Shown here: positions 9,725-55,158 of the stretch, in pieces
Position numbering within the stretch: the first letter of the stretch is position 1
Layout of the letters: every line of letters starts with the position of its first letter
Assembly: GCF_003724155.1 (NCBI RefSeq)
Contig: NZ_RJJQ01000024.1
Coordinates: 1 to 55,158, forward strand
DNA from: Flexivirga caeni
GTDB taxonomy: Bacteria; Actinomycetota; Actinomycetes; Actinomycetales; Dermatophilaceae
Length of the DNA stretch: 55,158 nt
Direction of reading: 5' to 3'
Notes under the pieces: generated by a model
Seen by the model: the letters and a program-made list of their open reading frames with translations, nothing else
What the model was told of the DNA's origin: nothing
Databases searched by the model: none
Position numbers and translations under genes: made by a program

Positions 9725-9817
9725 CCGAGCGGGGTACATATTCACCGACCGGGGTACAACCAGCACCCGATTCCGCAGTCAGTTCTACCCCGCTCGGCGC
9801 GGAAGTACCCCGCTCGG
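9725..9817. repeat. Four-box element, copy I (boxes CCGASCGGGGTA)
   Basis: Direct boxes lie at 9725-9736 and 9745-9756 and inverted boxes at 9786-9797 and 9806-9817. Box starts are exactly 20 bases apart on each side and the central spacer is 29 bases. The boxes read CCGAGCGGGGTA or CCGACCGGGGTA. Nested pairing of outer with outer and inner with inner boxes would give two 12-bp stems. The element ends four bases before the lgt stop codon and lies upstream of the glycosyltransferase. Other copies are at 47616-47718 and 55012-55158. Confidence 0.9.
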
Positions 9818-9821
9818 CGGA

Positions 9822-10931
9822 TCAGTCGTCGCCGGCGGGTTGGGCGTGCGCCGCGTCGGCGGCGGGGGCTCCATCGGCGGGTGGGTCGGCTTCATTGGCG
9901 GGGGCTCCATCGGCGGGTGGGTCGGCTTCATTGGCGGGTGGGTCGGCTCCATCGTCGCCCGGTCCCGCGTCGCCCCCGTCGGCCGTCGAGCCCGCGTCGC
10001 CTCCACCCGCCGCCTTCTTTTCGGCGGCGTCCTTCCCGACGGCCGCGAGGTGATCCGCGAGTTCCTGCGCGGCGACAGCCGAGACGGGCTCACGGAAACC
10101 GTTGGGGTAGCGGCGGGCACACATCCGGTAACCGATCACGCCGATGATGAACACCAGCACACACACCCAGACATTGACCCGCTGGCCGAGGATCCGGTTG
10201 GCCGGGTCGTCGCGCAGCCACTCCATCCAGATGCGACCGCAGGGGTATAGGGCGACATACAGGAAGAAGCACCGGCCGCGACCCAGCGTGTAGCGCCGGT
10301 CCAGCAGCACGATGAACAGCGCGAGCAGCAGCAGGAAGAGCGACTCGTAGAGGAAGGTCGGCTGGAAATACCCGGCGACGATCGGGTGCCCGGCGCTGTC
10401 GTGCACGGCGTGCCCGGCGCTTTCGTCCCACTGATAGATCTTCAGCCGCCACGGCAAATCGGTGGGGCGGCCGTGCAATTCGTTGTTGAAGTAGTTGCCC
10501 CAGCGCCCGAGCGCGTGTGCCAGGCAGACGCCCGGAGCGCCCGCGTCGGCAAAGTCGAGGAAGCGCACGCCGTGTTTGCGGCAGCCGATGTATCCGCCGA
10601 TCGCGCCGATCGCAACCGCACCCCAGATGCCGAGCCCGCCGTGCCAGATCGCGAACGCGTCCCAGGGGTTGCCGCCCTTGCCGAAATAGGGCTGCGGCGA
10701 GGTGATGACGTTGTAGATCCGGCCACCGATGATGCCGAACGGCACGGCCCACCAGGCGATGTCGAAGATGACCTCACGCCGGTAGCCCCGGTCCTCCAGG
10801 CGCCGGCCGGCCACCCAGACGGCGATGACGATCCCGGTGAGGATGCACAGCGCGTACATCCGGATCGGGAACGGCCCCAGCCAGAAGACCCCGACTGTCG
10901 GGCTCGGGAAGTATGACGCTTCGGTGATCAC
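9822..10931 (-). CDS. lgt: Prolipoprotein diacylglyceryl transferase
   Basis: Lgt moves diacylglycerol from phosphatidylglycerol to the lipobox cysteine of prolipoproteins in the plasma membrane. The 369-residue protein has about seven hydrophobic segments, His97-Gly-Gly in the IWHGGLGIWG motif, and the family signature HALGRWGNYFNNELHG at residues 139-154, then FQPTFLYES. GTG at 10931 overlaps the trpA stop (GTGA). The last 70 or so residues are a cytoplasmic tail rich in Ala, Asp and Pro, built partly of direct repeats (ANEADPPADGAP), which is not needed for catalysis in other species. Linkage of lgt to trpA is common in actinobacteria. Confidence 0.95.
   Translation of the reverse strand: MITEASYFPSPTVGVFWLGPFPIRMYALCILTGIVIAVWVAGRRLEDRGYRREVIFDIAWWAVPFGIIGGRIYNVITSPQPYFGKGGNPWDAFAIWHGGLGIWGAVAIGAIGGYIGCRKHGVRFLDFADAGAPGVCLAHALGRWGNYFNNELHGRPTDLPWRLKIYQWDESAGHAVHDSAGHPIVAGYFQPTFLYESLFLLLLALFIVLLDRRYTLGRGRCFFLYVALYPCGRIWMEWLRDDPANRILGQRVNVWVCVLVFIIGVIGYRMCARRYPNGFREPVSAVAAQELADHLAAVGKDAAEKKAAGGGDAGSTADGGDAGPGDDGADPPANEADPPADGAPANEADPPADGAPAADAAHAQPAGDD
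9861..9952. repeat. In-gene tandem repeat in the lgt tail
   Basis: A 36-base unit (GGCGGGGGCTCCATCGG...) occurs at 9861-9896 and 9897-9932, followed by a partial third copy. Because 36 is a multiple of three, the repeat encodes a repeated 12-residue ANEADPPADGAP-type stretch and the frame stays open. Copy number is likely to vary between strains. Confidence 0.85.
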
Positions 10932-11740
10932 TGACGCACTCCTTCGGCCAGCTCGGTCGCCTTCGCGGCGAGGGCAATCAGCCCGGCTCGGTTGTCCGGA
11001 GCCTGCACGAGCGTCGCGACCAGCGCGGACCCGACGATCACGCCGTCGGCGAATCCGGCCACCTCGTGGGCCTGTTCGCCGGTCGAGACGCCGAGACCGA
11101 CACACAGTGGGGTGTCCGTCACCTCCCGGGCGCGGCGGACCAGCTCGGCAGCGGCGGAGCCGACCGAGGAACGCGCACCGGTGACGCCCATCAGCGACGC
11201 CGCGTAGACGAAGCCGCGGCAGGCCGCGGTAGTGGTGACCAGGCGTTCCGGGGTGGAGCTCGGCGCGATCAGGAAGACCCGGTCGAGACCGTGCGCGTCG
11301 CTCGCGGCGATCCAGTCCGCTGCCTCGTCCGGCACGAGATCCGGTGTGATGAGGCCGGATCCGCCGGACGACGCCAGGTCTCGCGCGAAGGCGTCGACGC
11401 CGTAGCGCAACACGGGATTCCAGTAGGTCATCACCTCACAGGACGCGCCTGCGCCGGCGACGGCCTCGGCCGCCCGGAAGACGTCGCGCACCCGCACTCC
11501 GGCCGCGAGCGCTCCGGTCGCGGCCGTCTGGATGATCGGGCCATCCATCAGCGGATCGGTATAGGGCACACCGATTTCCACGACGTCGACGCCCGCGCGC
11601 ACCATGGTCACCATCGCCTCGATCGAGGTGTCGACGTCGGGATAGCCCACCGGTAGGTAACCGATCAGGGCCGCCCGGCGCGCACCCTTGGCGCGTGCGA
11701 GCGTCGCGGACACACCGCTGCGCTGCAGCTCTGTCGTCAT
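10928..11740 (-). CDS. trpA: Tryptophan synthase alpha subunit
   Basis: TrpA cleaves indole-3-glycerol phosphate to indole and glyceraldehyde 3-phosphate; indole passes through a tunnel to TrpB. The protein has 270 residues in a TIM-barrel. The two catalytic acids are Glu55 ([11 protein letters not shown]) and Asp66 (LMDGP), 11 residues apart as Glu49 and Asp60 are in the Salmonella enzyme. ATG at 11740 overlaps the trpB stop as ATGA; the frame is open 12 codons further but the overlap and alignment favour this start. The gene is followed directly by lgt. Confidence 0.97.
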
Positions 11741-26092: not shown

Positions 26093-26116
26093 CAGACGTG
26101 CCCGAGGGCACGCCTG
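26093..26116 (-). promoter_or_regulatory. Strong hairpin just after the FMN aptamer (expression platform)
   Basis: CAGACGTGCCC and GGGCACGCCTG form an almost perfect 11-bp stem around a two-base centre, one base downstream of the aptamer's P1 strand. No T-run follows, so it may act as a GC-rich terminator or as a structural partner that switches when FMN binds. The ribD start lies about 90 bases further on. Confidence 0.5.
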
Positions 26117-26117
26117 A

Positions 26118-26241
26118 CGTGCTGCCTCCCATCCGGACTGTAACCGTCGGTCCTGGAGTTCCACCAGGTCAGCCGACTGCCGAAGCAGCCGGGTCGCGGA
26201 CTATCACCGCCGGCTCGGAATTTCACCGACCCCGGAGCACG
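26118..26241 (-). promoter_or_regulatory. FMN riboswitch (RFN element)
   Basis: On the minus strand the conserved RFN core is seen: GGGGTCGGTGAAATTCCGAG, then GGCGGTGATAGTCCGCGACC, a variable arm, TGGTGGAACTCCAGGACCGA, CGGTTACAGTCCGGATGG and GGAGGCAGCACG. The P1 stem pairs CGTGCT (5' end, 26236-26241) with AGCACG (26118-26123). FMN binding is known to lower expression of downstream riboflavin genes. It precedes ribD by about 110 bases and should control ribD-ribE-ribM-ribBA-ribH, and possibly the genes read on from them. Confidence 0.96.
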
Positions 26242-26327
26242 TTCGCAACCATTCTGACACAGCCGTCAAGCCCGCTCCCCGCCAGCATCACCCACCTGTC
26301 GGCCGACCGACGCTCCACCACACCCGA

Positions 26328-47615: not shown

Positions 47616-47718
47616 CCGACCGGGGAACATCCGCACCAACCGGGGTAGATATCTGGCACTCGGACACTGCAATCCTGGCCAGCGTTCTACCCCCTCGATG
47701 GAAAAGTACCCCGCTCGG
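47616..47718. repeat. Four-box element, copy II
   Basis: Direct boxes CCGACCGGGGAA (47616-47627) and CCAACCGGGGTA (47636-47647) lie 20 bases apart. Inverted boxes lie at 47688-47699 (degenerate) and 47707-47718 (perfect), 19 bases apart, with a 40-base central spacer. It is the most decayed of the three copies and lies 54 bases upstream of the DUF1624 gene start. Confidence 0.8.
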
Positions 47719-55011: not shown

Positions 55012-55158
55012 CCGAGCGGGGTACTTCGGCATCGAGCGGGGTAGAAATCCGGCCGTTGGGCGTGCGTGGTTGTACCCCGGTCGGTGGGCTTCTACCCCGC
55101 TCGGTGAGAGGAGCGCGCAGCTCGAGGTCGTATGCCGGTCGGCGGGTTTGTACCCCGC
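55012..55158. repeat. Four-box element, copy III, with an extra box at the window edge
   Basis: Direct boxes lie at 55012-55023 and 55032-55043, and inverted boxes at 55073-55084 and 55093-55104. Period is 20 bases on each side and the spacer is 29 bases, identical in geometry to copy I. A further inverted half-box (TACCCCGC) begins at 55151 and is cut by the window end, so the array may be longer here. Confidence 0.9.

Follow-up and report, generated by a model that had tools for sequence, protein, structure and literature searches.

What is the four-box palindromic element that recurs between the genes of Flexivirga caeni, and does any gene travel with it? The question was raised by a stretch of 55,158 nucleotides (contig NZ_RJJQ01000024.1), analysed at full length and referred to here as the window, in which a preliminary description had pointed to three copies of one design: two direct boxes, a central spacer and two inverted boxes. 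All three copies were recovered. Copy 1 (9725..9817; 93 bp, no strand assigned) carries exact boxes at 9725-9736 and 9745-9756 on the plus strand and at 9786-9797 and 9806-9817 on the minus strand, separated by a 29-bp centre, and it ends 4-5 bp from the stop codon of a minus-strand ORF (9822-11105). Copy 3 (55012..55104; 93 bp, no strand assigned) also has a 29-bp centre, with plus-strand boxes at 55012-55023 and 55032-55043, the latter with one mismatch, and minus-strand boxes at 55073-55084 and 55093-55104. Copy 2 (47616..47718; 103 bp, no strand assigned) is degenerate: its plus-strand boxes (47616-47627 and 47636-47647) have one mismatch each and start 20 bp apart, while its minus-strand boxes (47688-47698, lacking one base, and 47707-47718, exact) start 19 bp apart. 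Box starts 20 bp apart, once 19 bp, had been described correctly, but the centre, 29 bp in copies 1 and 3, is about 10 bp longer in copy 2 (39-40 bp); likewise the spacers of copies 1 and 3, held to be identical, agree in length and differ in sequence. To the right of copy 3 lies an extra half-unit on the minus strand (55105..55158), consisting of a degenerate box (55131-55142) and a box start (55151-55158) at which the window ends mid-box. Allowing two mismatches or fewer, CCGASCGGGGTA matches the window 32 times, compared with 17.0 +/- 4.0 in shuffled versions. A search of the window against Rfam yielded no family matching the element; the sole match was an FMN riboswitch at 26115-26244 on the minus strand.

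A search of the whole genome and of its relatives, as the preliminary description had proposed, showed that the element is dispersed. The exact box CCGANCGGGGTA occurs 118 times (65 + 53) in the 4.14-Mb F. caeni genome, versus once for the reversed pattern, and scanning the stretches around box matches resolved these into about 40 element places. The usual layout has direct boxes starting at 0 and 20 and inverted boxes at 61 and 81, so the spacing, on whose retention in further copies the preliminary description had staked its proposal, is kept. A few copies carry extra 20-bp units, a 58-bp half-unit extension or only half an element. Arrays enlarged by added units were observed at L058:2440 and L042:502-730, with up to nine boxes in L042, and four exact boxes standing alone (L050, L055, L060 and L061) are probably chance occurrences.

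The box sequence differs between species, while the layout extends further. In 38 relatives, including four congeners, the exact F. caeni box occurs at chance level, 0-5 times per genome. When only the skeleton was kept (CCGA..GG boxes plus spacing), 23 + 23 matches were obtained in F. caeni and the layout was found in all four congeners examined, at 33, 18, 8 and 1 distinct places by hand count of the listing; these are undercounts, as the pattern tolerates no mismatch, requires a centre of 19-49 bp and passes over copies whose two pairs both have 19-bp spacing. The same skeleton gave no match in 395 other genomes of the order, all listed ones from other genera, and is blind to elements with other boxes there. 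Among the genomes designated G000 (F. caeni) to G003, the variable part of the box is its 3' half: GGGGTA in G000; GGCTCA/GGCCCA and GGACAC/GGACAA in G001; GGACAG/GGACAC, with some GGCTCA, in G002; and GGCACA/GGCCCA in G003. Viral contigs contained no match to the box pair. A contig scan for look-alikes elsewhere returned 22 stretches, 18 of them coming from one Chloroflexi MAG with a different repeat. In that MAG (Dive96_bin3.112; L069-L090), tandem 20-bp palindromes (TGCCCCGAACGGGGTACC) stand in a conserved frame and happen to share the box and the 20-bp period; further matches in the same scan fell in Curtobacterium, Streptomyces, Fibrobacter and Vicinamibacterales.

Three natures had been suggested for the element: a protein-binding array, a transcribed nested hairpin and a REP/RAYT-like mobile element. 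Its geometry bears on the first two. Box starts within a pair lie 19 or 20 bp apart, and the centre is within 1 bp of 19, 29 or 39 bp in 106 of 110 elements (scanner range 6-45 bp; 19-49 bp in the pattern behind many of the loci), although the number of independent events behind these steps may be small. Centre lengths that differ by one helical turn would suit a protein touching a single face of double-stranded DNA, and together with the 20-bp box spacing and the AbiEi-like partner introduced below they lend the protein-binding array indirect support. Pairing was assessed genome by genome. In G000 the two arms of one element show no better pairing than arms drawn from separate elements, so that the covariation predicted for a hairpin is missing from these arms, and the 8-bp spacers pair worse than shuffled ones (z -5.2 as found, -4.5 oriented), which we read as polarity of the element rather than a stem. 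G000 centres gave pairing z values of 0.8 oriented and -2.5 as found, and their folding is marginally more stable than that of shuffled sequence (mean z -0.73, s.e. 0.31). The hairpin as a selected trait was rejected for G000 on the behaviour of arms and spacers, and orienting the copies changed nothing. Centres pair above shuffled expectation in G001 (z 3.9 and 2.4 at two lengths), G002 (3.5) and G003 (3.5), in shuffles that ignore relatedness. Inverted boxes are thus found throughout, and of the four genomes tested three retain a palindromic centre; since the centres of G001, G002 and G003 pair better than shuffled, a cruciform, single-stranded or RNA hairpin may have a role in those genomes. 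The nested hairpin thereby loses its footing in F. caeni and keeps some in the relatives.

The elements lie between genes and prefer 3' ends, a dispersal seen in this genus. According to a simple, purpose-made codon-position gene caller, 45 of 72 elements in the relatives stand between convergent genes, 24 between tandem genes, 1 between divergent genes and 2 inside an ORF; the 40 F. caeni elements divide into 15 convergent, 14 tandem, 5 divergent and 6 at contig edges. Many are 5-30 bp from a stop codon. REPs show a similar preference for 3' ends, according to the portion of PMC3733652 drawn on here. This location, mostly convergent in the relatives, is what would be expected if the elements terminated transcription in both directions or were REP-like 3' structures, and had been spread by an unrelated transposase, by slippage or by recombination, with any neighbouring nuclease gene merely tolerating or using them; the pairing centres of G001, G002 and G003 (relatedness being uncontrolled) and the tandem 20-bp expansions agree with such passive repeats. 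We consider this account unlikely, because G000 arms lack covariation and because it leaves unexplained the unrelated boxes that, in other genera, flank one and the same gene family on both sides in matched copies.

Element positions turn over between species. For eight of the 40 F. caeni elements, an incomplete catalogue flagged a counterpart at the corresponding position of a relative, convincing in about five cases. At one convergent junction elements are present in G001 and G002 and absent from G003 and G004, where the distance between the matching flanks is -5 to +23 bp; gain and loss are indistinguishable there. Positions that are shared carry species-specific boxes, as at the ClpB junction (five genomes; the GGCCCA of G001 and the GGCTCA of G004 are one base apart), L043/L177 and L057/L158. 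Comparison of occupied with unoccupied sites at loci A, B and E showed no target-site duplication, with flanks about 70-88% identical and junctions that are not base-precise. Inspection by eye of L177 (G002) showed, beside an element and to the left of position 1541, a box that together with its flank is tandemly repeated as a 26-bp unit.

Which gene, if any, accompanies the element? The first candidate was the DUF222/HNH family, the 13E12 repeat genes, which are multi-copy and adjoin elements in F. caeni. Of the 11 F. caeni DUF222 genes above the cut-off, 7 lie about 1.5 kb or less from an element. An extended element closes four units that resemble one another (80-90% identity), and a further two are immediately preceded by an element. 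The half-unit beside copy 3 is the extension that also goes with DUF222/HNH copies elsewhere in the genome. These observations would accord with an HNH endonuclease that spreads the element, but three of the 11 genes (C1:242258, C51:100084 and C1:204879) have no element in the examined stretch, and a contig end truncates another (C10:113466); moreover, the DUF222 clusters hold F. caeni loci only and the association is seen in this genome, the one covered by the genome-wide DUF222 search, whereas the link described next holds across genera. DUF222/HNH as sole partner was accordingly set aside, and we regard it as the partner with very low probability. Two DUF222/HNH gene families adjoin elements in F. 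caeni (L038, L064, L065 and L067; L049, L063, L058 and L033), and two copies are internally deleted.

When the genes lying between two elements were compared, one family recurred, encoding an AbiEi-like protein, of winged-helix type, of about 300-400 aa. A single PADLOC AbiEi model matches 41 of 45 family members, while a Pfam scan of the same 45 proteins assigned AbiEi_1 to six, AbiEi_4 to three and Y1_Tnp to none. For the C-terminal half Pfam gave almost no assignment: one member matched DUF559 (E 0.0038) and one matched MTES_1575 (E 0.001). All 45 sequences share E213-S214, D245 and E256-x-D258-G259-x-x-K262 in this half, and D245 with E256-x-D258-G-x-x-K262 we take, by eye, to be a PD-(D/E)XK nuclease motif of the DUF559/Vsr-like kind. 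A sequence search of the PDB with the family gave a single, chance match, and viral contigs contained no confirmed relative. With a profile built from four members and a cut-off of E<=1e-20, the family was detected in 59 of 117 genomes. From 111 listed places we examined 49, and the flanks were readable for 48 genes.

Examination of these flanks, with a generic finder that knows no box sequence and in which a lower score is a better match, revealed elements around the family well outside the genus. Scores of 7 or less were obtained for 48 of 97 flanks near the nuclease gene versus 2 of 96 flanks further out at the same loci and 0 of 47 stretches inside genes; random 1-kb pieces reached this score in 6 of 400 cases, and a score of 8 or less in 15 of 400. 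Counting a skeleton match or a generic score of 8 or less, elements stand on both sides of 24 of the 48 genes, on one side of 10 and on neither side of 14. In other genera the elements beside these genes are often 66-75 bp long and their boxes are often unrelated to those of this genus, with clear pairs at L217 (CGACGGCGGCACA), L222 (GTGAACCTACT) and L253 (GACSAGTCGGGG); L216 and L214 have boxes near those of this genus.

The two elements of a gene nonetheless match each other. For the 23 genes with both sides at 8 or less, upstream and downstream elements have a mean of 18.6 of 20 bases equal, versus 13.1 between genes, in a sample that includes the doubtful arrays G003x, L225 and L237 (left-right identity 14-16/20). 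Across 22 genes, nuclease identity correlates with box similarity (Mantel rho 0.28, 0/1000 permutations). The sole gene pair above 80% protein identity has 9 of 12 box bases equal, which we counted against a partnership between gene and element.

Within the genus the linkage is closer still. All nine close homologues have elements on both sides, seven in the skeleton scan and two once the generic finder was added; G003a and G002b each have one weak side. The stop codon of the gene falls inside the downstream element in 8 of these 9, and in 11 of the 24 genes overall. In F. caeni the nuclease gene at the ClpB junction sits between two GGGGTA elements and a second gene (C51) between elements of the minor GGCACA family. 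The commonest box of a genome is the box found beside a resident nuclease gene in G000, G001 and G002, and the two commonest boxes of G003 are among those beside its nuclease gene; G004, with two catalogued elements, one of them beside the nuclease gene, is uninformative on this match. Also counted against a partnership were the 14 genes with elements on neither side, the several F. caeni elements that adjoin DUF222/HNH genes instead, the four G001 nuclease genes (E<=1e-20), none of which is flanked by the GGACAC family, and the solitary elements, where the examined stretches yielded no remnant of the nuclease at E<=1e-3.

These observations have led us to propose that the element is the non-coding, dispersed half of a two-part system, whose other half is the AbiEi-like gene with the putative PD-(D/E)XK-type motif that lies between copies. 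We hold this partnership to be probable, though with appreciable room for doubt. According to the proposed mechanism, the AbiEi-like protein would bind the four boxes as two facing direct pairs, with the boxes of a pair two helical turns apart and centre length changing in steps of about one turn. AbiEi-family proteins do bind arrays of inverted repeats, four of them in the case of Rv2827c (PMC7319586). The AbiEi-like part would read the boxes and the nuclease part would cut at or near the element; repair after cutting would then copy or recombine element-gene-element units, as well as solitary elements, to new and to occupied sites. Binding specificity and boxes would drift together, giving each species a box of its own. 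The analysis shows the layout, the dispersal, the boxes particular to each species, the matched elements around the gene, the turnover and the position at 3' ends; binding, cleavage, and mobilisation with its route we infer. Any single route, be it transposition, homing or recombination, we rate below the partnership as a whole.

The ClpB junction illustrates the model. An element-nuclease-element unit is present at this place in G000, G003 and G004, a single element in G001, and two elements around another gene in G002; these are the states that cut-and-repair copying predicts. They would also be produced by a homing route, in which the nuclease cuts solitary elements, the gene enters by gene conversion that homogenises the boxes, and new sites arise otherwise. 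The orientation of the two flanking copies (direct in 13 and inverted in 11 of 24 genes, but direct in 9 of the 11 cases with a clear difference of at least 10 score units) and the species-specific boxes at shared positions would be in keeping with homing. In contrast to classical homing, insertion preserves the site, a full element being left at either side, and the gain of elements at empty places is unaccounted for. We judge homing a doubtful though real candidate; as a route within the partnership, it overlaps with that reading rather than competing with it.

A regulatory interpretation must also be weighed, in which the flanking elements are autoregulatory operators or terminators of the AbiEi-like gene, the solitary copies are its regulon, mobility is absent and the nuclease serves in defence. 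One element does lie just before the AbiEi-like gene. According to PMC7319586, AbiEi-family proteins autoregulate through inverted repeats at promoters, and the four repeats that Rv2827c reportedly binds lie at its own promoter. The solitary elements, however, lie at 3' ends and not at promoters, as the divergent counts given above (1/72 in relatives, 5/40 in F. caeni) attest, and few positions in the incomplete catalogue are common between species, whereas a regulon is not expected to swap all of its sites. Operator copies therefore appear to us an improbable explanation.

How does the proposed partnership compare with known systems? MITEs, and transposon ends with several binding sites such as those of Tn7, IS21 and Mu, offer one parallel: a short non-autonomous element with inward-facing paired sites at each end, and boxes 1-2 are indeed inverted relative to boxes 3-4, as terminal inverted repeats are. 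Here, however, no target duplication was seen (the flanks are diverged), no transposase-like gene was recognised between elements, and the gene unit has a complete palindrome at either end. The linked proteins, which the PADLOC matches relate to the type IV toxin-antitoxin AbiEi antitoxins (AbiEi, Rv2827c), differ from these in a C-terminal nuclease-like domain and in arrays that are dispersed genome-wide in this genus.

The closest likeness is to the REPIN/RAYT systems, or REPtrons, which, in the portions of PMC3116915 and PMC3733652 drawn on here, share dispersed intergenic palindromes, location at 3' ends, species-specific sequence and a dedicated gene flanked by the repeats. Matching repeats on both sides of the linked gene, in 9/9 close homologues and 24/48 overall, repeat that arrangement. 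The unit differs, being a 12-bp box repeated at 19-20 bp within an array of four boxes, arranged as two direct pairs, with centres in 10-bp steps in this genus, rather than a 20-40-bp hairpin often arranged as inverted doublets; no GTAG- or CGTC-tagged hairpin unit of 20-40 bp was found in G000 elements. The linked gene also differs, being AbiEi-like with a PD-(D/E)XK-type motif and not a Y1/HUH transposase. Because this gene is no RAYT and the layout is different, the element is not a REPIN: it fails the defining features of unit and linked enzyme and resembles REPIN/RAYT in organisation. The suggestion of a REP/RAYT-like mobile element is supported by analogy, in the dispersal, the species-specific boxes at 3' ends, the presence and absence at given sites and the flanked gene family, but not in the nature of the gene. 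The best reading, by the same analogy, is a REP/RAYT-like partnership built on an unrelated enzyme, and there is a fair chance that the four-box element and its gene are a kind of their own. CGTC-tagged REPs with no known transposase are likewise palindromic and intergenic, with an unknown partner, and some class-2 boxes here contain CGTCA; those REPs are small palindromes, and the portion of PMC3733652 drawn on describes no four-box layout, while its text lacks the word 'actinobacteria'. Searches of the open-access literature, a scope outside which most subscription papers and bioRxiv fall, brought up no account of the element or of dispersed repeats around an AbiEi-like gene.

The evidence thus suggests a repeat-and-enzyme partnership of an unrecognised kind in bacteria. 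A bolder version, to which we give somewhat less than an even chance, is that a nuclease acting without any transposase or recombinase maintains and spreads the four-box arrays and that its specificity shifts together with all copies, so that each species comes to own a private box; the arrays would then form an unrecognised class of selfish repeat, and part of the many actinobacterial AbiEi-like genes would be mobility or maintenance genes rather than antitoxins. Dispersed bacterial palindromes with a gene dedicated to them are, to our knowledge, known mainly from REP/RAYT. Should an unrelated enzyme be confirmed in a similar job, it would show repeated evolution of the arrangement, and a gene family that is common but poorly understood would gain a role. 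A natural series of protein-DNA specificity pairs would also be at hand in the many boxes and their cognate proteins, and box replacement at conserved positions makes the concerted evolution of dispersed sites directly testable.

Two further observations may be added. At L039:2476-3726 (F. caeni, C3) a gene that looks phosphotransferase-like by eye lies between two elements, and element, gene and element are all absent at the same place in G001. Lastly, TGTGGATA or its complement occurs at most 300 bp upstream of, or 50 bp inside, the start of the profile match in 18 of 49 nuclease genes, in G000-G004 as well as in other genera, compared with a background of 16 occurrences in 972,962 bp; in 10 of those 18 genes the perfect DnaA-box 9-mer TGTGGATAA is present, and the sequence may represent a promoter element or a DnaA box.
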